64,000 nucleotides of DNA from Blastocatellia bacterium (GCA_019695185.1 JAIBAN010000041.1:1-64000), one strand, 5' to 3'; positions 4,690-61,212 are shown, counted from the stretch's first letter. Notes: a model not told the origin generated them from the sequence alone. A program made the numbers and translations.

Positions 4690-7584
4690 ATGAAACATCC
4701 GTTTTTTCTTCCGTTTTTGCTGATTGGCGTTGCCGTTACCACGCTTTTTCTGACCACCCCATTTCCATCTTTCAATAAGGTGGCCCAAGCCTCGGCACCA
4801 ACCGCACTTGATCCCAAAAACAAACCGCGCAAACGGGTTACCGGTACGGCAGGGGTCTCAACCCAGTCTGCCGTGGTCAACTTTTTGTTGCTGGCTCAGG
4901 AGGAAAAACTCTCCAAACGGCCTCAAAGACCCAAAGACCCGGAACATCCGCATGACCCGGTACCGTTGCTTGACCCGGCGGCAGCCGCTGAAAGCTTTGA
5001 AGCCCCGGCAGCCAAAATCATCACACCCAGAGATGAAACCCCACGGGCCCCTTCGCCCGCAACCTCTGCTTCCTTTCTGGGACTGGATGACAATAACGGC
5101 TCTATTCCGCCCGACACGCATGGTGCTGTCGGTCCCAACCATGTCATGGTGACACTCAACACCCAGATTCGGATTTTAAGCCGGACGGGCACAGCCATCA
5201 GTACGGTTTCCCTTGATTCGTTTTGGTCACGGGTGGGCGGCGATGCGTTTGACCCCAAAGTGCTGTATGACCCGTTTGAAAACCGGTGGATGATAACCTC
5301 GACCGCTGATGGATTTGACCCCATGTCGGCTGTCCTCATTGGAGTTTCCCAAACCAGTGACCCAACCGGAAACTGGAACCTGTACCGCATTGATGCCGAT
5401 AAAAATGATGTGGTCTGGGCCGATTACCCCAGCTTTGGATTCAATAAAGACTGGATTGTAGTCACCTGTAACATGTTCGGAATTTCCACCCCCAGTTTTC
5501 GCGGCACCAACCTTTACATCTTTAACAAAGCCGATTTGTATGCCAAAGGGACGGGGAAATTTACGCTGATTCAAAGCACCGGCATTGGTGGAACGGTGGT
5601 CCCGGCCATCACCTATGACAATTCTTTATCAACGCTGTATCTGGTCCAGGGCCAAAGTTCGGGATTGGGTACCTATACCATTTCAGGGCCGGTGGGGCAG
5701 GAAGTTTTGACGGTGGGGCCGACCGTGCGTGTGACCGATGGCTGGTCTTTTGGACCACCGAATGGCGACGATTTTGCCCCTCAACAAGGAACCCCGCTGA
5801 AAATCAGCAATGGAGATGCCCGGATTCAGAACGTTTTCTATCGCAATCAGGCTCTGTGGTGCGCGCACACTGTTTTTACCCCGGCAGGTGCCGCAACCCG
5901 CAGTGCTGCCCAAATCTGGCAGATTCGACCAGAAGGGTCGGTCGTCCAGCGGATGCGGTTGGAAGACCCCACCAGCAAAATCTTTTATGCGTATCCCACG
6001 CTAGCCGTCAATAAGGACAATGACCTGCTGGTGGGCTATTCCCGGTTTTCCGCCAGCCAGTTTGCCAGCGCCAACTATGCCTTTCGGGCCGGGAGCGACC
6101 CGCTCAACACCCTGCGCGACGATACGGTTCTGAAAGAGGGTGAAGACACCTATTTCAAGCGGTTTGGCGGCGAAGACAATCGTTGGGGTGATTACAGCAG
6201 CACCATTGTGGACCCGGTCAACGATACGGCTTTGTGGACGGTGCAGGAATATGCCGGGAAGTCAAACCGGTGGGGCGTCTGGGTTGGCCAAATCACCCCG
6301 CCTGCGGGGGAACCGCTCGACCAGACACCACCCACTGTCAAACTTGGGTTTCCGGTGGGTGGGGAAACGTTCAAGTCCTTTGATGAACTCAATCTGACCT
6401 GGACGGCCTCCGACAATAAAGGGGTTTTCCAGCATGACCTGGCGTTTTCAACCGATGGTGGAGCCACGTTCCCAACTCAGATAGCTGTGGGCCTGCCCGG
6501 CACCGCCACCAGTTTCAAATGGAGCATTCCCCAAGTGGAAACCACTCAGGGGCGAATCCAGATTACCACCCTGGACACCGTTTTGAACCGGTCAGTCAGC
6601 AGCAATGCCACCAATTTCATAATTGTGGCTCCGTCGTTGCCGATTCCCCGTAATCTGAGCGCCACGGTCAATGGAGCCCTGGTCCGACTCAACTGGGATG
6701 AACCGGCTTCAATTCCAACCGCGTCTTTGCGCAACTATAACCTCTATCGGTCGCGGACTTCGCCGGTTGAATTGAGCGGCGGCAACCGGCTGGGAACCTT
6801 TACCACTGATATTCGGGCTTTCTCTGACCGTCCGACACCCGCCGATGGGAAAACCAAATACTTTTACGTGCTCACCGGAGTTTATGAATCGGGTGAAAGC
6901 GCGGCTTCGAACGAAATCACGGTCACGCCGGACGCCAGTAGCGGCGACCCGACAGCCCCAACGGTCCGGGTCCTGACTCCGAATGGAGGGGAAACTGTTA
7001 CTGCCGGAGATGTGCTCTCAATCACCTGGACTTCGACGGATAATGTGGGAGTGGTCAGCCATGCGGTGGACCTTTCCACTGACAATGGAAATTCCTTTAC
7101 CATTCCGGTTGCGACCGGACTGGCGGGAACCGTCAAGCAATTCAGCTACACCACTCCAACCACAGTTTTTTCCACCAGCGCCCGCATACGGGTCCAGGCC
7201 CGTGACGCCGCCGGAAATACCGGACAGGACAGCTCCGATGGCAGCTTTACCTTGAAATCCAATGACACCGAAAAACCGACCGTCACAGTGACCAGCCCAG
7301 GGGCTTCAACCAAAAAGCTGGTGGGCGGGGCAGGTTTCTCCGTGACCTGGACTTCAGGTGATAATGTGGGGGTGGTGTCTCATCAAATCCTGCTTTCCCG
7401 GGATGATGGCGCAACTTTCCCGGTCACGTTGGCGGATTCCATTTCCGGCAGTGCCCAGTCGGTGAGTATTGTGATTCCCAACGAAAAAATTGCCAAAGGA
7501 AAAATCAAAGTGGTGGCGCGCGATACGGCGGGCAACGTGGGCGAGGGTGTTTCCTCTACGTTTAAGGTGAAGCAGAAAAAATAA
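4690..7584 (+). CDS. Secreted propeller-like protein with Ig-like and FN3 repeats
   Basis: 964 residues with a signal peptide (MKHPFFLPFLLIGVAVTTLF). Residues about 125-540 form a Trp- and Gly-rich, probably propeller-like region starting at a GLDDNNGSIPPDTHGAVGP motif. Next come a Kre9-like Ig repeat (6320-6630), an FN3 domain (6640-6935) closely similar to that of the metalloprotease gene, and two further Ig repeats (6955-7581), the last ending in FKVKQKK. No catalytic motif is recognised. It is the third of three neighbouring genes with the same C-terminal repeat architecture, so they probably arose by duplication and reshuffling of the N-terminal module. The upstream gap holds a strong terminator, so it is likely to have its own promoter. 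No clear Shine-Dalgarno precedes the ATG. Confidence 0.82.
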   Translation: MKHPFFLPFLLIGVAVTTLFLTTPFPSFNKVAQASAPTALDPKNKPRKRVTGTAGVSTQSAVVNFLLLAQEEKLSKRPQRPKDPEHPHDPVPLLDPAAAAESFEAPAAKIITPRDETPRAPSPATSASFLGLDDNNGSIPPDTHGAVGPNHVMVTLNTQIRILSRTGTAISTVSLDSFWSRVGGDAFDPKVLYDPFENRWMITSTADGFDPMSAVLIGVSQTSDPTGNWNLYRIDADKNDVVWADYPSFGFNKDWIVVTCNMFGISTPSFRGTNLYIFNKADLYAKGTGKFTLIQSTGIGGTVVPAITYDNSLSTLYLVQGQSSGLGTYTISGPVGQEVLTVGPTVRVTDGWSFGPPNGDDFAPQQGTPLKISNGDARIQNVFYRNQALWCAHTVFTPAGAATRSAAQIWQIRPEGSVVQRMRLEDPTSKIFYAYPTLAVNKDNDLLVGYSRFSASQFASANYAFRAGSDPLNTLRDDTVLKEGEDTYFKRFGGEDNRWGDYSSTIVDPVNDTALWTVQEYAGKSNRWGVWVGQITPPAGEPLDQTPPTVKLGFPVGGETFKSFDELNLTWTASDNKGVFQHDLAFSTDGGATFPTQIAVGLPGTATSFKWSIPQVETTQGRIQITTLDTVLNRSVSSNATNFIIVAPSLPIPRNLSATVNGALVRLNWDEPASIPTASLRNYNLYRSRTSPVELSGGNRLGTFTTDIRAFSDRPTPADGKTKYFYVLTGVYESGESAASNEITVTPDASSGDPTAPTVRVLTPNGGETVTAGDVLSITWTSTDNVGVVSHAVDLSTDNGNSFTIPVATGLAGTVKQFSYTTPTTVFSTSARIRVQARDAAGNTGQDSSDGSFTLKSNDTEKPTVTVTSPGASTKKLVGGAGFSVTWTSGDNVGVVSHQILLSRDDGATFPVTLADSISGSAQSVSIVIPNEKIAKGKIKVVARDTAGNVGEGVSSTFKVKQKK

Positions 7585-7585
7585 T

Positions 7586-7740
7586 TAAGAATTGAGAATT
7601 GAGAATTGAGAATTGAGGATTGAGAATGCACAATTCGATTGCCTAAATGTAACAATCTGAACGTTGTGTTGCCGTACGCGCTGTGAACCATTCAGCTCAA
7701 CTCAGAATTGTTCAATTCTCAATTCTCAATTCTCAATTCT
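7586..7740. repeat. Inverted pair of GAATTGA heptamer arrays
   Basis: The left array (7586-7627) has about six tandem copies of GAATTGA. The right array (7711-7740) has about four copies of the reverse complement. The 80-nt spacer is unrelated. The same motif pair recurs at 58731-58860. It fills the gap between two genes on the same strand. Confidence 0.9.
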
Positions 7741-9846: not shown

Positions 9847-9957
9847 GGGAGGCTGGGGAGGCAAACCCCTGACAGGGTGACAGGGTGACAGGGTGACAGG
9901 GTGACAGGAATTTCTCGACTCCCCAGACTCCCAAAACTCCCAAGGCTTCCAAGACTG
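9847..9957. repeat. 8-nt tandem array (GACAGGGT) beside a CTCCCAA-type array
   Basis: The left part (9870-9908) is about five copies of GACAGGGT. The right part (9919-9957) is a degenerate array of ACTCCCAA-like units. A partial complement of the right part (GGGAGGCTGGGGAGG) lies at 9847-9862. It fills the gap between two convergent genes. Confidence 0.8.
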
Positions 9958-11547: not shown

Positions 11548-12183
11548 TCAATCCCGAAATAAAGCCGGCGGTGTAATGAAATAGCGGGCGGAAAACCGCC
11601 CGGCCCGGAGTTCCTCCAGGAATTCGGCCTCGTTGGTGATAGGGCGTTCAAACGCAGTAACGCAACTTCCGACCTGAGCCAACGTAGCTGCTTCGCTTCC
11701 GCCAATGGTCTTGAGTCCTGCTCCGCAGGCAAAATCACAGGCTTGCTGATTATGAAGGCGTGAACATTGCCCATTCAAACCTTCAATCACAAAGATTCCG
11801 GGCAATGTGGCGATTTTATCACCCAGGCTACGCCGGTCGGGGTCAAACGGATGGGCCGGAATACAAACGGCCCCGTGCTCACCGGTATATTCCAACAACC
11901 GGAGCATCGGCAACCCTTTTTTTCCTTCCAAGCCAAGGGCTTCCTTTTCCGGAAGTCCAAAAATCAGGACGCCACCCCAATCGGTTTCAATTTCCAGCCC
12001 CCGAATTACGCATAAACCCGTTCCTTCGGCAAACTCACTGCACACAGCCGAAGCCGCATAATGATTGTGCTCGACCACCCCAATGCCACCCAGTCCCAAA
12101 TCAAGGGCCTGGTCAATCAATTCTTCGGGTGCAAGCAAGGAATTTCCGGAAAGGACGGTGGAGAGATGAAGGTCAAAAAGCAT
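11548..12183 (-). CDS. PHP-domain protein with incomplete metal-site motifs
   Basis: 211 residues. The frame follows the PHP phosphoesterase order: DLHLST at the N-terminus where DxHxH is usual, VVEHNHY where TDHN is usual, a conserved E in GLEIE, PAHPF, and GGSEA where GSDAH is usual. The second His of the first motif and the Asp/His of the last are missing, so the metal site is reduced or altered. PHP domains hydrolyse phosphoesters, and a shortened site may mean a different metal number or a non-catalytic role. The ATG directly abuts a repeat array, so no Shine-Dalgarno can be seen. Confidence 0.78.
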   Translation of the reverse strand: MLFDLHLSTVLSGNSLLAPEELIDQALDLGLGGIGVVEHNHYAASAVCSEFAEGTGLCVIRGLEIETDWGGVLIFGLPEKEALGLEGKKGLPMLRLLEYTGEHGAVCIPAHPFDPDRRSLGDKIATLPGIFVIEGLNGQCSRLHNQQACDFACGAGLKTIGGSEAATLAQVGSCVTAFERPITNEAEFLEELRAGRFSARYFITPPALFRD

Positions 12184-12320
12184 AGGGTTCAGGGTTCAGG
12201 GTTCAGGGTTCAGAGTCCAGGATTCAGGATTTTCGAATACCGAAAATTTGAAAGTCCGATACAGGTTTCAAAACTCAAAACTCAAAACTCAACGAAAAGA
12301 CCCTGAACCCTGAACCCTGG
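12184..12320. repeat. Inverted CAGGGTT arrays with an inner CAAAACT array
   Basis: The left arm (12184-12230) is about five units of CAGGGTT. The right arm (12297-12320) is about three units of AACCCTG. The spacer contains an inner heptamer array (CAAAACT, 12268-12292) and a TTTCGAATACCGAAAATTTG stretch. The spacer read on the other strand matches most of the spacer at 15797-15942. Confidence 0.9.
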
Positions 12321-12323
12321 TTG

Positions 12324-12749
12324 TTAAACCATTTCTTTCAAGAGTTTCCAATAATGGTGGTATTTCTCGACGCGGCGCAAATCGCGTTCGGTGAGATTTT
12401 TAATGCGACGAAAATCCATGTTGTCTTCAATATCGGCCAGTTTGACCCGCATGGCGATGTGATTGGAACGAATCCGCTCAATGAATTCGCTATAAGGCTC
12501 ATCCGGGCGATGGGAAAGACAATCCACCGCCGCCACCACTTCTTCGGAAAAACCTTCGGCCTGGAGTTGTTCCAAGGTCCAGGGAGTATCCTCAATCACG
12601 TCATGCAACACCGCGGCCATCATTTCGACCTCGGTGTTCATGCGGAGCATCATTCGAATCGGGTGCAACACGTAGGGAGCACCAGCTTTGTCTCGTTGCT
12701 CCTGGTGGGCGGTGGCAGCAATGGCAATGGCACGGGCAAGGTTGGACAC
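12324..12749 (-). CDS. HD-domain hydrolase, SpoT/MESH1-like
   Basis: 141 residues from a GTG start with AGAGG five bases upstream. The motifs are those of the (p)ppGpp hydrolase half of RelA/SpoT and of the single-domain MESH1 proteins: R-x-K-A-G-x-P-Y-V-L-H-P near residue 19, the HD pair plus ED in AVLHDVIEDT near residue 47, and VKLADIEDN near residue 103. There is no synthetase, TGS or ACT domain, so it is a small stand-alone hydrolase. Alarmone hydrolysis is plausible from family knowledge but other nucleotide substrates are possible. Repeat arrays flank it on both sides. Confidence 0.82.
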   Translation of the reverse strand: MSNLARAIAIAATAHQEQRDKAGAPYVLHPIRMMLRMNTEVEMMAAVLHDVIEDTPWTLEQLQAEGFSEEVVAAVDCLSHRPDEPYSEFIERIRSNHIAMRVKLADIEDNMDFRRIKNLTERDLRRVEKYHHYWKLLKEMV

Positions 12750-12763
12750 AAAGACCTCTTTTG

Positions 12764-12923
12764 TTCAGAGTTCCGCCTTCAGGCGGCGGTTTTGAGTTCC
12801 GCCTTCAGGCGGCAGTTTGGAAAACAAACTTCAGGTTGTTTTCTTAAAATCATCAGAAGGTAACAAGTCCAGCCGCGTAAACGCGGAACTCAGAACTGCC
12901 GCCTGAAGGCGGAACTCAAAACC
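12764..12923. repeat. Inverted copies of the CCGCCTGAAGGCGG palindrome unit
   Basis: Two left units read GAGTTCCGCCTTCAGGCGGC. The right side has CGCGTAAACGCGGAACTC and GCCGCCTGAAGGCGGAACTC in the complementary sense. Each unit contains its own palindrome, and the two sides also pair with each other. It ends at the stop codon of the next gene. Confidence 0.9.
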
Positions 12924-13688
12924 TTACTTTTGGAGCAGAACGTCGCTCATGGCGGTGTGAAGCAACCCGTTGGTCGCCAGAATTTCAGGAATGTAGTTGT
13001 CAAACGGGCTGCCGTCAAACTTGGTCACCTGTCCCCCGGCTTCCGTTACAATCAGACTTCCTGCGGCCATGTCCCAGGCAGATAAATTGAGTTCCCAAAA
13101 CCCGTCAAACCGCCCGGCAGCCACATAACACAAGTCAATGGCGGCAGAACCATCACGGCGCACGGCCTGGGCCACATCCAGAAAGCGGCTGAAATGATTG
13201 AGGTTTTTCTGCGGTGAAGTCCGCACGTTATAAGGGAATCCGGTACAAAGCAAAGCCCGCTCCAGCGAAGGAATGGTCGAAACCTGGATCGCGCGTTCGT
13301 TCAATGTCGCGCCCTGGCCGCGTTCGGCAGCAAAAAGTTCATCCCGCGTTGGGTCGTATATCGCTCCGACAATAACGGTGCCCTCATGTTCCAGGGCAAC
13401 TGAAACACAAAAACAAGGGTATCCGTGGGCATAATTGGTGGTCCCGTCAAGCGGGTCCACAATCCACCGGTAAGCGGAGGTCTGTTCGCTCAACCCGCCT
13501 TCCTCACCCAAAATCTGGTGCTTGGGAAAACGGTTGTTGATTTGCTCGCGGATGAATTTTTCCGACAGCAAATCCACTTCCGTCACGAGGTCAATCTGCC
13601 CCTTGTGACGAACATCAAGCTGGCGTCCCATGTGTTCGCGGAGAATCCTTCCGGCATCACGGGCGAGTTGTTTGGCAAAGTTCAGCAT
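12924..13688 (-). CDS. suhB: Inositol monophosphatase family protein
   Basis: 254 residues, the usual length for the family. The metal- and substrate-binding motifs are complete: DLVTEVDLLSE, GEEGG near residue 62, the hallmark DPLDGTTNYAHG near residue 79, and the C-terminal LSAWDMAAGSLIVTEAGG. These enzymes remove phosphate from inositol monophosphate or related sugars in a Mg-dependent reaction; SuhB homologues can also act in rRNA transcription. The exact substrate is not determined by sequence. It starts at an ATG with only a weak purine run upstream, next to a repeat array. Confidence 0.92.
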   Translation of the reverse strand: MLNFAKQLARDAGRILREHMGRQLDVRHKGQIDLVTEVDLLSEKFIREQINNRFPKHQILGEEGGLSEQTSAYRWIVDPLDGTTNYAHGYPCFCVSVALEHEGTVIVGAIYDPTRDELFAAERGQGATLNERAIQVSTIPSLERALLCTGFPYNVRTSPQKNLNHFSRFLDVAQAVRRDGSAAIDLCYVAAGRFDGFWELNLSAWDMAAGSLIVTEAGGQVTKFDGSPFDNYIPEILATNGLLHTAMSDVLLQK

Positions 13689-13693
13689 CTTTT

Positions 13694-13841
13694 TCAGGGT
13701 TCAGAGTTCAGAGTTCAGAGTTCGGGGTTCGGGGTTCGGGGTTTTCGAATATCAGCAGATTTGAAGCTCTGGATGGGGCTTTCATTGTCAATTGTCCATT
13801 GTCAATTATCCATTCAAAAGACCCTGAACCCTGAACCCTGG
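13694..13841. repeat. Inverted CAGGGTT-type arrays with an inner TGTCAAT array
   Basis: The left arm (13694-13742) drifts from CAGGGTT through CAGAGTT to CGGGGTT units. The right arm (13822-13841) is ACCCTGA-type. The spacer starts with TTTTCGAATATCAGCAGATT and holds a degenerate ATTGTCA/ATTGTCC heptamer array. Its two ends match the element at 12184-12320 while the inner array differs. Confidence 0.88.
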
Positions 13842-13843
13842 TT

Positions 13844-15685
13844 TTAATGCGTTTCCGTCATGTCCATCAAAAAATCAAGTGCCGTGGTCGGCATCTGCTG
13901 GGTTTGCAGGTAATGTTGCTCAATTTCCTCAATCCGGAACCGGTCCAGGCCGCTGTTTTCCAGAAAATCCTCACGCAGCCGCCGGTCCCGCGACGACAGG
14001 ATTTGCGGCAGCAATTCGTTCAGATAGAGACATTCCTCGCGGATGGTCAACAAAACCGAATTGAAGAGTTCCTCCGGGATGTTTTCCGTAATGACGCCAT
14101 CCTGCAACATCTGCCGGTTAACCGTGTTCCGCAGGAACACATGTTCGGATTTATCGAGCGGGTTTTTATAAATATCACGCACCAACCGCCGGACGTGTCC
14201 ATCAATCGTGCGCCGTAAATAAAGCTGTTGATTGACGACGGCAATGGCCTCAATCACTGGTTTCGGATTGCCCTCGCCATGCACGATTTCCTTGATTCCG
14301 TGGGAAAGTGCCTCCAGGCGCTGTCGTCCGTAAGCATTAAGGTAGCGATTGTTTTTGATAGGCTCGAAAAACAATTCGGTAAAGAGATTTTCCCTGATAT
14401 TTTCAAAAATGACCTGATTGCGGGCCAGGGTATACAACCGCTCTTCGGTCAATTCAAAGTCATCAATGAAAGCCACCCCGTTGATAATCGCGCTCAAGGT
14501 GTCAAAGCGGTCAAAGTTGGCAATGACCCCATGAAATGCCTCAATGGCCGCTTCGTTGGAAGTCTGAAACTGCCAGCCTTCGGAATCACGGGTCAGTTCA
14601 GCCAGCGCGTTTTCAAACTGCAACGAGCGGTTTTCCACCGCCTGCCGTTTGTAGTGCATCAACCTGACAAGCAAATCGGGAGTCGCATCCGGGGCACCAT
14701 CCACAAAAAACGACTGGAGAATCCGGCGCACCTCCCGCACATATTCGGGTTCGACCTTCGGCTGGTCGGATTGTTTGTGCAGGAGCATCTTGTCCAGTTG
14801 GTCAAAAATGCGTGGTGGCAGCATCCGCCGGGCACCGAGTGCCCGCAGGCGGGTCAATTTGGGGAGGGTCATTTTGTCGGAAAGATTGTGCGTGTAATGA
14901 GCCACCAGAATTTCTTCATACTGTGAAATAATTCCGGCGCTTTCGCCAAACTCACTGGCCACACTGATTTCAATCCGCTCCTGTTGCGACCAACTGATAC
15001 CCCGCTGTTTGGCTTCCTGGTCAAGCCGACTGCGGTCCGAGGCTTTCAGCGGTTTGCCTGTCCGGTGCAAATCACGAAACAATGTGGCGTAGGAATTGGC
15101 CGCCAAATCGGTCAGCCGGACCAGAAACAGGCTCCATTTGGGAATCCCCAACTCAGCATAGAGTTCCTTGGCCAGTTTCGCCCCAGTCGCCTCGGTCGTC
15201 AGGTCATAGCGTTTCAAAAACTTCCCGGCCAGCCGCAGAATCATTTCCTGCGCTCCCCGCACTCCCCCCTGAACGTCGCCCGAAATGAAGAAAAAATAAT
15301 TGGTCAGGACGTGACCTTCGCGGAAAATCCGTTCATAAGACTCTGCCCCGTCGGCTTCGCCGGTAAAACCCAACCGGCCTTCCATATCGCCAATCCGCGC
15401 GCCGTACATGACCAGGCGGTTGCAGACATCGCGCTTGAGCAAGTCTTTGAGGGGGCGTTCAACCCCATACATGTAGGGACAAAACGAACCTCCCGTCCCC
15501 CGGTGTGCCAGTCGGTTGTCATGCAGGCAGATTTCATTTCCACCGGAGAAAAAGCGGTCACGTGGGAATTCCTGTTCGGTGTCGTACTCGTAAAAAAACC
15601 GCACATTCAGGTTTGTTCCGATCACCGTTGTGTAAAACTCATAACGATCACCGACCGTCCCGTGCAGACAAATGTCGTGAATCAC
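13844..15685 (-). CDS. Large conserved-looking protein of unknown function
   Basis: 613 residues from a GTG start with a good GAGGTGA sequence seven bases upstream; no competing ATG nearby. No signal peptide or membrane segment is obvious. The N-terminal 150 residues are rich in aromatic residues (YEFYTT, NLNVRFFYEYD, NYFFFISGD); the rest is mostly helical and charged. It looks cytoplasmic. From memory it may belong to an uncharacterised family found in deltaproteobacteria and Acidobacteria (possibly TIGR04442), which I cannot verify here. No nucleotide-binding or catalytic motif is evident. It lies in a run of minus-strand genes separated by repeat elements, so its neighbours give little functional context. 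Confidence 0.75.
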   Translation of the reverse strand: MIHDICLHGTVGDRYEFYTTVIGTNLNVRFFYEYDTEQEFPRDRFFSGGNEICLHDNRLAHRGTGGSFCPYMYGVERPLKDLLKRDVCNRLVMYGARIGDMEGRLGFTGEADGAESYERIFREGHVLTNYFFFISGDVQGGVRGAQEMILRLAGKFLKRYDLTTEATGAKLAKELYAELGIPKWSLFLVRLTDLAANSYATLFRDLHRTGKPLKASDRSRLDQEAKQRGISWSQQERIEISVASEFGESAGIISQYEEILVAHYTHNLSDKMTLPKLTRLRALGARRMLPPRIFDQLDKMLLHKQSDQPKVEPEYVREVRRILQSFFVDGAPDATPDLLVRLMHYKRQAVENRSLQFENALAELTRDSEGWQFQTSNEAAIEAFHGVIANFDRFDTLSAIINGVAFIDDFELTEERLYTLARNQVIFENIRENLFTELFFEPIKNNRYLNAYGRQRLEALSHGIKEIVHGEGNPKPVIEAIAVVNQQLYLRRTIDGHVRRLVRDIYKNPLDKSEHVFLRNTVNRQMLQDGVITENIPEELFNSVLLTIREECLYLNELLPQILSSRDRRLREDFLENSGLDRFRIEEIEQHYLQTQQMPTTALDFLMDMTETH

Positions 15686-15796
15686 GCTTTCACCTCTGTT
15701 CTTTGTGGCTGTTGGCTGGGTGTGTACGTGCGATTGAATATAAGGAAGCCGCAGGAATGAATGCTGGTGGGTTTTAGCACGATGGGGCTTGGTGGG

Positions 15797-15942
15797 TCCA
15801 GGGTTCAGGGTTCAGGGTTCAGGGTTCAGGGTTCAGGGTCTTTCTGTTGAGTTTTGAGTTTTGAGTTTTGAAACCTGGATCAGACTTTCGAATTTTCGGG
15901 ATTCGAAAGCCCCGGACCCTGAACCCTGGACCCTGAACCCTG
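15797..15942. repeat. Inverted CAGGGTT arrays with an inner GAGTTTT array
   Basis: The left arm has six units of CAGGGTT (15799-15840). The right arm (15914-15942) has AACCCTG units with a one-base variant. The spacer has three GAGTTTT units, then AACCTGGATCAGACTTTCGA and a CGAATTTTCGGGATTCG palindrome. Read on the opposite strand it is the same element as 12184-12320 with scattered differences. Confidence 0.9.
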
Positions 15943-15945
15943 CTT

Positions 15946-16629
15946 TTAGGGCTGTTTTTCCAACGTCACGGCAATATTGCGGGCCTCGTTTTTTTGAACA
16001 TCCACATCCTGGATTTTGGTCACAAACCCTTTCATGGTAGCAGTAACCCGATAATTGGCGGCGGCTCCCGGCAGCCGGAAGGCAAATTCACCGCCGGTGC
16101 TGGTCACATATTCACCCACTTTCCCGGTTACCGCCTTTCCGTCTTTGGAAAGATTTTCAAGCACGATTTTGACTCCCGGCAACGAAAACCCTTTGCTGTC
16201 AAAAACCGCTCCCCGAATGATCGAAAGCGCCCGTTCAGGTTCCAGTTTGATCGGTTCCCGGATGACAGTGGTTTTCCCGGCAGTCACAAGGGGAAGGGTT
16301 GTCAGGCGCGAAGGCTCGTATTTCTCGGCGCTCACGCTGACCACATAGGTTCCCGGACGCAAGCCCGTCACCTGAAAAGCTCCATTTTCATTGGTGGTGA
16401 CTTCGGTTTCCTTGCCGGTGCCTTGGGATTTGGCTTTGACCACGGCCCCCACCACCGGTTTTCCGCCCTCGCGGGTAACGACCCGGCCCGAAATCGAGCC
16501 TTCGAATTCATCTGCTTTGGTCGGAACAGCCGCCAGCCCCAGGCTGACGACAAGCAACAGGATGCCCATAACTCCCAGCCGCACCGCGCGGCCTGAGGCA
16601 ACAAACAGGAAAGGCAAACAGTTTTTCAT
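15946..16629 (-). CDS. Secreted carboxypeptidase-regulatory-like domain protein
   Basis: 227 residues with a long signal peptide (hydrophobic stretch GILLLVVSLGLAAVPTKA). Two carboxypeptidase-regulatory-like beta-sandwich domains follow: residues about 47-125 (SGRVVTREGGKPVVGAVVKA...GLRPGTYVVSVSAEKYEPS) and about 137-225 (IRGAVFDSKGFSLPGVKIVL...ANYRVTATMKGF). Such domains are usually accessory modules in secreted or surface proteins and have no activity of their own. Its start overlaps the stop of the CapA-like gene by four bases (ATGA), so the two are translationally coupled and probably act together. Confidence 0.85.
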   Translation of the reverse strand: MKNCLPFLFVASGRAVRLGVMGILLLVVSLGLAAVPTKADEFEGSISGRVVTREGGKPVVGAVVKAKSQGTGKETEVTTNENGAFQVTGLRPGTYVVSVSAEKYEPSRLTTLPLVTAGKTTVIREPIKLEPERALSIIRGAVFDSKGFSLPGVKIVLENLSKDGKAVTGKVGEYVTSTGGEFAFRLPGAAANYRVTATMKGFVTKIQDVDVQKNEARNIAVTLEKQP

Positions 16630-20989: not shown

Positions 20990-20990
20990 A

Positions 20991-21329
20991 GTTCAGAGTT
21001 CCACCTTCAGGCGGCAGTTCAGAGTTCCGCGTTTACGCGGCGGTTTTGAGTTCCGCCTTCAGGCGGCTGTTGGAGTTCCGTCTTCAGGCGGCTGTCCTTG
21101 ATTTTTCTTAAAAGGAGTGTTCCCGTTTATTCACGGCCAAAAGCAGCAAAACTGTTTCCGAATGGCCCCCTGACACGTTATAAAGAAAGACTTGAAAGGG
21201 TTCCGCCTGAAGGCGGAACTCAAACTGCCGCCTGAAGGCGGAACTCAAACTGCCGCCTAAAGGCGGAACTCAAACTGCCGCCTAAAGGCGGAACTCTGAA
21301 CTGCCGCCTGAAGGCGGAACTCATAACTC
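20991..21329. repeat. Large cluster of CCGCCTGAAGGCGG palindrome units in inverted halves
   Basis: Bases 20991-21090 hold four units in the sense GAGTTCCGCCTTCAGGCGGC (one variant is CGCGTTTACGCGG). Bases 21200-21329 hold five units in the opposite sense, GCCGCCTGAAGGCGGAACTC, with some CTAAAG variants where both sides of the palindrome do not match fully. The middle 100 bases are unrelated. It stops just before the next start codon. Confidence 0.92.
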
Positions 21330-35602: not shown

Positions 35603-35715
35603 GGATTGAGGACACAATCCAGGACTGAGGACTGAGGACTGGTTCTTCAAAAGAAATAAGGTTTCGTCAAACGATAACCGTAGAATTCTTTCCTCAGTCC
35701 TCAGTCCTCAGTCCT
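35603..35715. repeat. Inverted pair of GGACTGA heptamer arrays
   Basis: The left arm (35631-35651) is three units of GGACTGA, preceded by GATTGAGGACACAATCC. The right arm (35691-35715) is three to four units of TCAGTCC. The right array runs into the convergent gene and supplies its stop codon (TGA at 35708-35710 on the minus strand). Confidence 0.92.
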
Positions 35716-36676
35716 CAGTCCTTTTTGCATATAAATCCGGTTCCCCCTCAGGCCGGGTTTTCCAGCGGCGATGAATCCACAGCCAATGATCTGGATGCCG
35801 CCGAATCATATTCTCAATCGCCTTCATAAACTGGGCCGTATTGACTTCGATATCCTGCTTTGGATCTCCTGTTTCAATCAGTTCCAGGGCCGGTTCGAAA
35901 TGCAACCGGTACTTTCCCAGCCTTTCATCCCAAATTAAAAAACCCGGCAGGACAGCCGCCTTGGTTCGCAGCGCCAGCGTTGCCAGCATCGGAGTTGAAC
36001 AAGCCGGGATGCCAAAAAAATCACAAAAAACCCCCTGATTGCGGACCATATTCAAATCCGCCAGAATGCCAACCGTTTCCCCTTTGCGAAGGGCCGTCAG
36101 AATGGCTCTGGTTGAACCCATTTTATCCAGGGTGCGGTTGCCCGAAGCCGTGCGATAGCGGTCCACCAACTGTTCCACCAATGGATTGTCAATCCGCCGG
36201 ACCACAATGCTCATCGGGTAGCCAAACAAAGCGTGGGCAAAGGCACTCAGCTCCCAAACCCCAAAATGGCCGGTGAGAAACAAAACCCCGTTCCCCTGCT
36301 CCCGCGCCTTTTGGTAATGTTCCAACCCGTCATATTCCACCAATCTTCCAATATTCCGGGAATTGAGTTTGGGCAATTGGCTGAACTCGCCCAGCAGTCG
36401 GCCTAAATTGGAACAGGCTTTGGCAGCAATGCGCTTTCGCTCAGGTTGATTTTTTTCCGGAAAAGCCAATTCCAAATTGCGATAGGCCACCCGGCGTAAC
36501 CGGGGGATGAAAGCGAATGCCAGCTTGGCAAACAGCCAGCCACAGTCCAGAGCCATCCGGCGGGGAAACCAGCCCAGCACCTTCAACAGGCTCCAAACCA
36601 CGCCATATTGCAGGTGAATCAAAAGACTGTGAGCTTTTGGCGGTGTGTTGTGAGCTTCAGCGGAGCTTTCTGACAT
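35708..36676 (-). CDS. LpxL/HtrB-family lysophospholipid acyltransferase
   Basis: 322 residues, the usual length. A single N-terminal membrane anchor region is followed by the acyltransferase core: the HX4E motif in FLTGHFGVWELSAFA near residue 137, GILADLNMVRNQGVF near residue 203, and the C-terminal WLWIHRRWKTRP. This family adds secondary acyl chains to lipid A or related glycolipids at the inner membrane. No other lipid A genes are near. The last residues KRTED and the stop are encoded by a GGACTGA repeat array, so the natural C-terminus seems to have been set or altered by that element. Confidence 0.9.
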   Translation of the reverse strand: MSESSAEAHNTPPKAHSLLIHLQYGVVWSLLKVLGWFPRRMALDCGWLFAKLAFAFIPRLRRVAYRNLELAFPEKNQPERKRIAAKACSNLGRLLGEFSQLPKLNSRNIGRLVEYDGLEHYQKAREQGNGVLFLTGHFGVWELSAFAHALFGYPMSIVVRRIDNPLVEQLVDRYRTASGNRTLDKMGSTRAILTALRKGETVGILADLNMVRNQGVFCDFFGIPACSTPMLATLALRTKAAVLPGFLIWDERLGKYRLHFEPALELIETGDPKQDIEVNTAQFMKAIENMIRRHPDHWLWIHRRWKTRPEGEPDLYAKRTED

Positions 36677-52934: not shown

Positions 52935-53190
52935 AAACGTTAAACCTCGCTTAAACCTCTCCGAACTGAATCGGGCTGATTGTGTGGTAAATCAAAACAA
53001 ATGAAGATTTTGCAAGCCAAAATCATCACAACCCAGACTGAACATGCAGGATCGAAAGTGAACCAGTGGGATGGTTCCAGGGATGGCTTATGCTTGAAAA
53101 TTTGAAGAGGGGAACTGGATTTCTACTGAATCAGGATTGTATCCCGCCTGGAATATTTGTCAATTAAATGGATAAACCCGGCAAATCAAA
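52935..53190. other. Gap upstream of the NHL protein gene
   Basis: 256 bases without gene or array; probably the promoter of the minus-strand NHL gene. No convincing promoter pair seen. Confidence 0.3.
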
Positions 53191-53355
53191 GTCTTGAGGG
53201 TCTTAGGAGTCTTGGGAGTCTTGGGAGTCTTGGGAGTCTTGGGAGTCTTGGGAGTCTTGGGAGTCTTGGGAGTCTTGGGAGTTTGAAGCAATAAACAATG
53301 ACAAGTACTTATAGTGACAGGATTTTTTCTTGTCACTTGTCACCTGTCACCTGTT
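53191..53355. repeat. 9-nt CTTGGGAGT array plus inverted GTGACAG units
   Basis: Bases 53192-53281 are about ten tandem copies of CTTGGGAGT (the first two degenerate), the longest uninterrupted array in the window. It is followed by TGACAAG and GTGACAG (53299-53321) and the complementary CTTGTCACTTGTCACCTGTC (53329-53353). Confidence 0.93.
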
Positions 53356-57780: not shown

Positions 57781-58116
57781 GAATTTCAAGCATCCACAAG
57801 CTGAAGTCTACGCCCCTACGACAACCAGCGGCTGTTTTGCGCATGGCTGAAGGAAGCCTCCGATTTATTTGAGGCTCGACGGGAATCAATATGTTTTAAG
57901 CGGGCCGCAGCAAACAGTTGTGTTTGGAAATCCAGGCTCACTGGAATAATTGTGAGCGAGCGCGAGAATAAAATCGCCTGGCAAACGAGAAATAACCGGT
58001 TTCGATCATACTCCCGGTTTGCCAATCGAGCAAGCCTCGACCGAAATCTAATGGCGGGAATCAATTTTCCGGATTGCGAACCACCCAAAAGCGAATGTAT
58101 AAACGGGTTTCCTTTC
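57781..58116. other. Divergent gap between hflX and the ACT-domain gene
   Basis: About 335 bases before the repeat element, with no gene. It should contain the hflX promoter on the minus strand and possibly the ACT gene promoter. No clear promoter pair is identified. Confidence 0.35.
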
Positions 58117-58250
58117 CAGGGTTCAGGGTTCAGGGTTTTTCACAACTTGCGATTTCCGGGCTTCCTTCGTACTACGTTTGTCCAAAATCTTTAGAAGCAC
58201 AGCCAAATCCCTTGAACCCTGAACCCTGAACCCTGAACCCTGAACCCTGG
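58117..58250. repeat. Inverted CAGGGTT heptamer arrays
   Basis: The left arm (58117-58138) has three CAGGGTT units. The right arm (58210-58250) has five to six AACCCTG units. The spacer differs from those at 12184 and 15797. Confidence 0.9.
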
Positions 58251-58270
58251 TTTCCAAAAGGTGCTGTCAC

Positions 58271-58729
58271 ATGAACGACGAAGAAATCATTTATCAAATT
58301 ACCCGTGCGGTTTATCGCAAACTGGGACAGTTTGCCGACCGTTCCCTGGTTGAAGACCTTGTGACTGACATTTTCCGTTCCATTCAGCCTGCGCTGGGAG
58401 ATATCAGTCCGCCGTCAATCCCGACAACGGACCTGACTGCCACACCGGGTTCCAGCAGCAACCGGGCTGTGATTTCCATTTTTGGGCAGGACGGTCCCGG
58501 GATTATGGCCGCCGTCACGCACGTACTGGCTGAAGCCCGCTGCAGTATTGTGGATATTAACCAAACGGTGTTGCGCGGGAAGTTTGCCATGCTGCTCGTG
58601 GCGGATTTGTCGAACCTCAACGGCACGCTGGCGGACCTGCAACTGCGGCTCAAAACCGAAGCGTCACACCTGGGCGTGCGGGCATTTGTTCAGCGCGAGG
58701 ACCTGTTTCACTCAATGCACCGTGTTTAA
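58271..58729 (+). CDS. ACT-domain regulatory protein
   Basis: 152 residues. The C-terminal 85 residues are an ACT domain (RAVISIFGQDGPGIMAAVTH, ...SIVDINQTVLRGKFAMLLVAD), close to the UPF0237 type. The N-terminal 65 residues are a charged helical extension (MNDEEIIYQITRAVYRKLGQ) not found in the shortest UPF0237 proteins. ACT domains bind small ligands such as amino acids. It precedes the UPF0210 gene on the same strand, the pairing seen in many bacteria for these two families, so the two products probably work together. AAAGGTG lies upstream of the ATG. Confidence 0.88.
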   Translation: MNDEEIIYQITRAVYRKLGQFADRSLVEDLVTDIFRSIQPALGDISPPSIPTTDLTATPGSSSNRAVISIFGQDGPGIMAAVTHVLAEARCSIVDINQTVLRGKFAMLLVADLSNLNGTLADLQLRLKTEASHLGVRAFVQREDLFHSMHRV

Positions 58730-58730
58730 T

Positions 58731-58860
58731 TGAGAATTGAGAATTGAGAATTGAGAATTGAAAGAAGGTTCCTGGCTGTATCAGTCGTCCAGCTTTCTGA
58801 AACCTCCTGGCAGTTTTCTCAATTCTCAATTCTCAATTCTCAATTCTCAATTCTCAATTC
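58731..58860. repeat. Inverted GAATTGA heptamer arrays between the ACT and UPF0210 genes
   Basis: The left arm (58731-58761) has four GAATTGA units. The right arm (58816-58860) has six TCAATTC units. The spacer is 54 bases. It ends five bases before the UPF0210 start. Same type as 7586-7740. Confidence 0.93.
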
Positions 58861-58865
58861 TTTCT

Positions 58866-60233: not shown

Positions 60234-60385
60234 TGAGTTCCGCCTTCAGGTGACCAAAAGAAAGGCAGAGGTCAAAAATAGAAGGTTGTAGGTGGTTTTT
60301 CCGCCTTTTTCCTTTTTCCTTTTTCTTGAAAGCAGCCGCCTGAAGGCGGAACTCCAAACCGCCGCCTGAAGGCGGAACTCCAAAC
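60234..60385. repeat. Inverted CCGCCTGAAGGCGG palindrome units
   Basis: One left unit (GAGTTCCGCCTTCAGGTGAC, 60235-60254) and two right units in the opposite sense (60336-60385). It lies between UPF0210 and the response regulator and stops six bases before the next start. Confidence 0.9.
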
Positions 60386-60390
60386 CCCAG

Positions 60391-61033: not shown

Positions 61034-61210
61034 CAAGAAGTCTTGGGAGTCTGGGGAGTCTGGGGAGTCTGGGGGGTCCAAGAAAGCCAGAAGTCAGAAG
61101 TCAGAAGTCAAGAATGAAGGAAATGTTTTTTGAGTCTCAAGACTCCCAAGACTCCCCAGACTCCCAAGACTCCCAAGACTCCCCAGACTCCCAGGACTCC
61201 CAAGACTTCC
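61034..61210. repeat. Inverted CTTGGGAGT/CTGGGGAGT arrays with an inner AGTCAGA array
   Basis: The left arm (61036-61075) has 9-nt units TCTTGGGAG, TCTGGGGAG. The centre (61086-61111) has three AGTCAGA heptamers. The right arm (61137-61208) has about eight units of ACTCCCAAG/ACTCCCCAG. The right arm ends just before the hemD start. Confidence 0.92.
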
Positions 61211-61212
61211 CT

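Follow-up and report, generated by a model that had tools for sequence, protein, structure and literature searches.

A dispersed palindromic repeat with nested heptamer arrays in the intergenic spacers of a Blastocatellia bacterium

The 64,000-nucleotide (nt) stretch of DNA from Blastocatellia bacterium that was analyzed here (the window; GCA_019695185.1, JAIBAN010000041.1:1-64000) is part of a 65-kb contig from a genome of 8.33 Mb and contains three intergenic spacers that belong to one family of dispersed palindromic repeats. This family, which we call E, does not encode any protein, and its unit measures roughly 140 bases (about 120-200 nt). The three spacers are E1 (12184-12320, minus strand), E2 (13690-13843, minus strand) and E3 (15794-15942, plus strand). 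E is probably a non-autonomous palindromic element that is copied as a unit and whose heptamer arrays are lengthened by slippage and can be swapped. A sequence-only reading had described the three spacers as two copies of one modular element on opposite strands together with a related third. Its coordinates and motif order proved correct, with all named motifs being present in order.

Plan and copies of the E family

The common plan of the family is (GGGTTCA)n, GGGTCTTTTGAAT, an inner array, AACCCATTCAGAACTTCAAATTTCCTGGTATTCGAAAACCC and (TGAACCC)n. The outer stem is formed by the inverted heptamer arrays (GGGTTCA)n...(TGAACCC)n, followed by the conserved anchor GGGTTTTCGAAT, and the outer arrays together with GGGT.TTTT/AAAACCC ends constitute terminal inverted repeats. 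The inner stem often contains a second heptamer array on one side, which loosely pairs with a degenerate right side that is not an array. The proposal of a repeat nested inside a repeat is hereby borne out, as an inner heptamer array lies within inverted outer ones. In this genome the inner arrays consist of the words AATTGAG, AGTTTTG or ATTGACA/ATGGACA, which were assigned to 22, 11 and 10, respectively, of 70 extracted sites (some loci being counted on both strands), the other 27 being of other types or decayed. As the inner array of E1 and E3 also pairs with the right core in the predicted RNA fold, the unit can be regarded as one long imperfect palindrome.

The relationship between E1 and E3 does not depend on their outer arrays. 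Without these, the cores of E1 (12226-12300, minus strand) and E3 (15837-15912, plus strand) are 87% identical over 75 nt, and their alignment score of 53.5 compares to a maximum of 14.5 among 2000 dinucleotide shuffles; the two are copies of one element on opposite strands. E2 is a relative, both of its ends matching those of E1 and E3 with a different inner array in between. Its core (13744-13822, minus strand) shares 61% identity with the other two, with alignment scores of 7.0 and 6.5 (shuffle controls: means -5.9 and -6.4, maximum 8.0). The membership of E2 is secure because intermediate copies are present elsewhere in the genome and because E2 is identical over 88 nt to a copy on contig C154.

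Searching the genome with the spacers, as the sequence-only reading had suggested, yielded a large number of copies in which the ends are conserved and the inner arrays vary, a picture which was seen again in the sister genus (G003). The spacers are far from being single-copy. A BLAST search with E1 gave 77 matches, and the right-end signature TATTCGAAAACCCTGAACCC was found, with up to three mismatches, 85 times in forward and 95 times in reverse orientation, that is 180 times in the genome (reversed control: 0). Similarity among copies ranges from the 88-nt identity of E2 and the C154 copy down to barely recognizable. It is not confined to the arrays either, since 14 of 23 loops between E-type outer arms (arm type A) have a relative elsewhere in the data set. 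The flanks of the copies are unrelated except for a few paralogous genes, and segmental duplication as origin of the copies was rejected on these grounds. Altogether 794 kb of the genome were read, comprising the window and 40 further stretches, most of which were picked around E copies. Contigs were observed to end in or beside E copies or GGGTTCA arrays (position 1 of L039, L055, L059 and L066; ends of L063 and L069). The repeats seem to break the assembly, and the copy numbers are probably lower bounds.

Heptamer words and hairpins in two genera

The arrays of E can change on one and the same core or anchor. The copies in L037 and L044 have an identical right core of 32 nt, with AATTGAG as inner word in the former and ATTGACA in the latter. 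G003 has the same anchor (GGGTTTTCGAA), which is combined there with outer arrays of GGGTTCA, GGGTTCC or GGGTTCG and, among the classable inner arrays, mainly with TTTTTGTCC and TGTCACC. As different outer and inner words occur on the same anchor, both layers of arrays have indeed been exchanged over evolutionary time while the anchor stayed fixed.

A similar picture emerged from 17 orthologous gene junctions, which were compared between the sampled parts of the two genomes (about 10% and 15%, respectively), occupancy being read from the spacer sequences. Arrays are present in both genera at seven junctions, only here at three, only in G003 at another three and in neither at four. All seven doubly occupied junctions hold different heptamer words in the two genera, with E2 facing a GGGGCTT array, E3 facing nested GAATGAA/AGTGGTT arrays and AGGACTG facing GAATGAA. 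At one junction the genes overlap by a base here, whereas an interval of about 170 nt lies between them in G003 and includes, besides the E anchor, arrays of GGGTTC[AG] and TGTCACC. Another junction exhibits 109 nt of arrays here compared to 12 nt in G003.

The anchor with one preceding unit (GGGTTCNGGGTTTTCGAA) was found in only two of 162 genomes of the class, namely in this one (61) and in G003 (169), the control giving 0. The outer array alone, (GGGTTCA)3, occurred in the same two genomes among 119 sampled from the phylum. A scan of 84,980 species with a slightly longer exact GGGTTCA array returned at least 99 stretches; among the matches listed are Planctomycetota, Lentisphaerae, Desulfobacterales, Gammaproteobacteria, Bacteroidetes, Chloroflexi and a Methanophagales archaeon. 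The GGGTTCA word is widespread, whereas the composite E element is not. Among the matches listed (L082-L161), many (GGGTTCA)3 stretches carry other heptamer arrays as well. When 9-40 kb were sampled per genome from 15 genomes of the class, most contained few or no heptamer arrays, and the array density observed here is therefore lineage-specific.

E is embedded in a wider set of heptamer hairpins. Period-7 arrays dominate the tandem arrays in the 794 kb of this genome (362 of 654 rows) and likewise in 1.25 Mb of G003 (528 rows). Close inverted pairs are common among them, with 25 clusters of the kind B+B-, 21 of A-A+ and 19 of C-C+, where A denotes E-type outer arms, B AGGACTG and C AATTGAG. 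In the window, a hairpin at 35618-35724 has AGGACTG...CAGTCCT arms and a unique loop (fold z -9.6), and a further one at 7583-7740 has AATTGAG...CTCAATT arms (z -8.0), the word being the inner array of many E copies. A related hairpin with AATTGAG...TTCTCAA is located at 58728-58861, and the hairpin at 58113-58252 combines E outer arms with an unrelated loop (z -7.4). The predicted RNA folds of the elements and hairpins that were folded are strong (z -5.4 to -9.6). None of the 23 B-type and none of the 19 C-type loops has a relative in the data set, so that a hidden conserved core in these loops was rejected. Similarity confined to the arrays, which holds for the B and C hairpins, does not hold for the E family.

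Other repeats in the sampled DNA show related formats. A second kind with units of 25-26 bp, in which the palindrome CCGCCTGAAGGCGG is joined to AACTCAAAACT, the latter containing the heptamer AAAACTC, is found at window positions 12768-12818, 12872-12922, 20990-21092, 21203-21328 and 60335-60386, often in tandem and in inverted pairs. Arrays with units of 9 bp (AGTCTTGGG/CAAGACTCC) and 8 bp (TGACAGGG) occur at 53190-53282, 61039-61078, 61138-61211 and 9870-9908, and since those at 61039-61211 form an inverted pair, the format is not limited to 7 nt. Some AATTGAG arrays are broken by a common block, GAAGTTCGAATTGAG (L049 17724-17907, L046 7896-8052, L055 3497-3861). In L049 and L055 this block is mirrored in both arms, yielding a larger unit of a palindromic TTCGAA plus heptamers.

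Placement, candidate movers and rival explanations

Most array clusters are intergenic (185 of 213). Their density per kb of spacer is 2.9 between convergent, 2.0 between co-directional and 0.6 between divergent genes, values that are biased upward by a sample partly selected for E copies. In co-directional spacers the upstream stop codon is no more than 10 nt away for 47% of the elements, compared to 27% upon random placement (reached in 0 of 5000 placements); no excess of elements was found at the start codon in these spacers. Roughly two fifths of the co-directional junctions in the sampled genome carry such structures, the sample again being biased toward E copies. The orientation of E relative to the genes is unbiased in this genome (12 antisense, 8 sense), and a strand-specific RNA function was rejected for this reason.

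The suggestion of a mobile or copied unit fits with the dispersal, the near-identical copies and the presence or absence of elements between the two genera, from which we infer a putative mobility. According to this reading, the entire unit would be copied at once into the short gaps that separate co-oriented or convergent genes, and replication slippage would then alter the length of its arrays. New heptamer words might arise in the hairpin through slippage or template switching, or be brought in from other arrays by conversion, and insertions into genes and promoters would be purged, leaving elements behind stop codons. The moving enzyme would act in trans. An excess of 2-9-nt direct repeats flanking the elements, as expected for target-site duplications, could not be found in 120 elements. 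Due to this lack a single-strand (hairpin) mechanism would suit better than a cut-and-paste DDE-type transposase, and a miniature inverted-repeat transposable element (MITE) of the DDE type was rejected.

Several observations weigh against a copied, exchangeable unit, the missing target-site duplications among them. The proposed exchange of the inner array stands with regard to the switches described above, but the type usually goes with the core lineage: when each copy is paired with its nearest neighbor by right core, the inner types agree in 69% of cases compared to 37% with shuffled labels (0 of 2000 shuffles), the first part of the right core having been removed against circularity. The B and C hairpins, with common arms and unrelated loops, indicate that copying of whole units is not the sole process. 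Variants are shared by both arms of one locus only weakly above expectation in this genome (p 0.02-0.35), and strong arm-to-arm copying was rejected. The sister genus, being the nearest comparison, exhibits about 50-77% identity in the proteins compared and is too distant for a clean empty site, so that gain and loss would be inseparable behind the differences in occupancy. The partial selection of the sample and the gene calls, which come from a simple in-house caller, count on the same side, as does the fact that none of 14 inspected genes for Y1 transposases from both genera is flanked by heptamer arrays or the E anchor.

These Y1 genes bear on the idea that E resembles REPINs, which are, according to Bertels and Rainey (2011, PMC3116915), inverted doublets of repetitive extragenic palindromic (REP) sequences that are moved in trans. 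E would then be an inverted pair recognized as single-stranded hairpin by a Y1 transposase encoded elsewhere, that is a REP-associated tyrosine transposase (RAYT) related to IS200/IS605. The variable spacer between inverted parts, the hairpin, the intergenic location and the lack of target duplications would all fit, and Y1 transposase matches exist in this genome (11) as well as in the sister genus (9). However, REPs flank their RAYT, and the inspected Y1 genes are flanked by GC-rich inverted palindromes of their own, such as GCCGCGAGAGCGGC (L273-L280, L261, L266-L270), apparently representing genuine REP/RAYT systems. Moreover, most genomes of the class that were searched carry Y1 genes yet no E anchor. 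We consider a REPIN-like origin unlikely, and spread by the resident Y1 transposases was rejected in view of the other palindromes in their flanks. Near the copies read no transposon sharing the ends of E was seen, the search for transposase families having been restricted to Y1. A different enzyme is encountered in this genome (G000) and in G003, G012 and G033 (L210, L208, L209, L211), where a conserved reverse transcriptase of 507-529 amino acids with the C-terminus KKWWK is encoded. It might copy the hairpin RNA and insert the product, and seven of the eight family members besides G000 and G003 gave no reverse transcriptase match, all of these lacking the anchor. Nevertheless, G012 and G033 carry the enzyme without the E anchor and nothing was seen that would link it genetically to the elements, making this route highly improbable.

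Two further explanations were considered. In one of them nothing moves, and arrays would arise locally by polymerase slippage, favored at 7 nt, and be mirrored by template switching across hairpins, with the core being old and kept or homogenized by gene conversion. The dominance of period 7 in both genera, the recurrence of GGGTTCA in many bacterial phyla and one archaeon among the matches listed, and the unrelated loops beside B and C arms, which are weakly self-complementary (p about 0.004), speak for such a local origin, and for heptamer repeats of bacteria slippage at 7 nt has already been suggested (cited in PMC4692102 and PMC4679880). What it leaves unexplained is why a non-array core and anchor recur in roughly 180 dispersed copies whose flanks are unrelated, and why the anchor is restricted to two genera; we therefore regard it as rather unlikely. 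The hairpins could also be selected for a role at the 3′ ends of messages, as stabilizer, RNase III site, terminator or insulator. Their position behind stop codons between co-directional or convergent genes, their depletion at divergent promoters and the very stable predicted RNA hairpins are compatible with this, and the heptamer repeats of Xanthomonas are described as largely transcribed (PMC4692102). Yet the purging of harmful insertions would produce the same placement and there is no strand preference. A-runs and T-runs just outside the elements are about threefold enriched to a nearly equal extent (12% A, 10% T compared to 4%), which does not single out terminators. Orthologous junctions freely have or lack elements, and E matches no Rfam family; the Rfam scan of the window gave one tRNA and no other family, and a known structured RNA was rejected. 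A selected function at the RNA level thus appears improbable.

With E being taken as a copied palindromic element, a broader claim might be considered, although only tentatively and with some doubt: that E represents modular mobile DNA which keeps its architecture (inverted heptamer arrays in a nested arrangement, a fixed 12-nt anchor, a position behind stop codons) while the words are replaced within and between genera. If this holds true, the hairpin format would persist more than its sequence, and the B and C hairpins with their unique loops would be further products of the same process.

Layout in the window and known relatives

The neighbors of E1, E2 and E3 are all minus-strand genes, encoding a PHP-domain protein, an HD-domain protein, an inositol monophosphatase, a 613-amino-acid protein and a protein with a carboxypeptidase-regulatory domain. 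E1 (fold -59.8 kcal/mol, z -7.3) occupies the entire spacer from the start codon of the PHP-domain gene (11548-12183, minus strand) to the stop codon of the HD-domain gene (12324-12749, minus strand), reaching from the base adjoining the former to within 3 nt of the latter. It consists of an outer AGGGTTC array (12184-12228), the anchor TTTTCGAATA (12230-12239, plus strand), an inner TCAAAAC array (12268-12292; AGTTTTG on the minus strand) and the inverted outer partner ACCCTGA (12300-12319). E2 (fold z -5.4) occupies the spacer from the inositol monophosphatase gene (12924-13688, minus strand) to the stop codon of the gene for the 613-amino-acid protein (13844-15685, minus strand). This protein has no Pfam match and is conserved in G003 (65%), G001 (50%) and G010 (37%). 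The parts of E2 are an outer TTCAGGG array with TTCAGAG and GGGGTTC variants (13693-13743), the anchor TTTTCGAATA (13742-13751, plus strand), an inner array of the CATTGTC/AATTATC type (13783-13814) and an outer ACCCTGA array (13821-13840). E3 (fold -85.6 kcal/mol, z -9.1) comprises an outer GGGTTCA array (15794-15839), an inner TTGAGTT array (15847-15871), the anchor ATTCGAAAG (15901-15909, plus strand) and an outer ACCCTGA/ACCCTGG array (15910-15942). Its end is 3 nt away from the stop codon of the gene with the carboxypeptidase-regulatory domain (15946-16629, minus strand).

A literature search yielded no paper joining Acidobacteria with intergenic heptanucleotides or Blastocatellia with tandem repeats. 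In Nostoc and Calothrix, small dispersed repeats (SDRs) are reportedly nested with tandem heptamers of the short tandemly repeated repetitive (STRR) type, and are said to be hairpins of 21-27 nt units inside arrays without coding capacity. Compared by description only, these SDRs sit inside arrays, whereas E is a larger unit with arrays as its arms and in its inner stem. With MITEs, E shares its shortness, the lack of coding capacity, inverted ends and many copies, but differs in showing no target-site duplication, and no parent transposon with the same ends was found in a search of transposase families restricted to Y1. Heptamer arrays of bacteria are an old observation whose origin has remained obscure, and the conserved core of E provides a tracer which bare arrays do not have. 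With E copies to count, align and date, the origin of arrays, their inverted pairing and the replacement of words become testable by strain comparison. Structures of this type also bear on the evolution of operons and 3′ ends and on assembly gaps.

A close likeness is found in the GGGAATC repeats of Xanthomonas, which are about 90% intergenic, located mostly between co-directional genes and rare at divergent promoters, with about 70 inverted pairs per genome being able to form stem-loops (Rehm et al., 2015, PMC4692102). Heptamer units, intergenic placement, inverted pairing and rarity at divergent promoters are also seen in the E genome. Here, however, several words exist per genome, shared junctions hold different words, and E has a common core and anchor. 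The class 3 repeats of Geobacter metallireducens are multicopy foldback sites with five tandem heptanucleotides (MTYCTGA; 16 sites; PMC2700814); they have few copies and are called putative binding sites of global regulators (IHF/HU), nested exchangeable arrays not being reported in the text available. The TAACTGA arrays of Beggiatoaceae and Cyanobacteria are intergenic and dispersed over the genome and over distant phyla, but are direct repeats of a single word (with one inverted case) upstream of start codons (MacGregor, 2015, PMC4679880). REPINs resemble E as extragenic, non-autonomous inverted pairs with a spacer that form a hairpin, but the arms of E are heptamer arrays of variable length instead of REP sequences, and no link to a RAYT gene was found. 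In the descriptions consulted, none of the Xanthomonas, Geobacter, TAACTGA and REPIN systems combines a conserved anchor with two layers of arrays that can be exchanged. We therefore regard E as a new nested form of the inverted heptamer repeats known from Xanthomonas and Geobacter.

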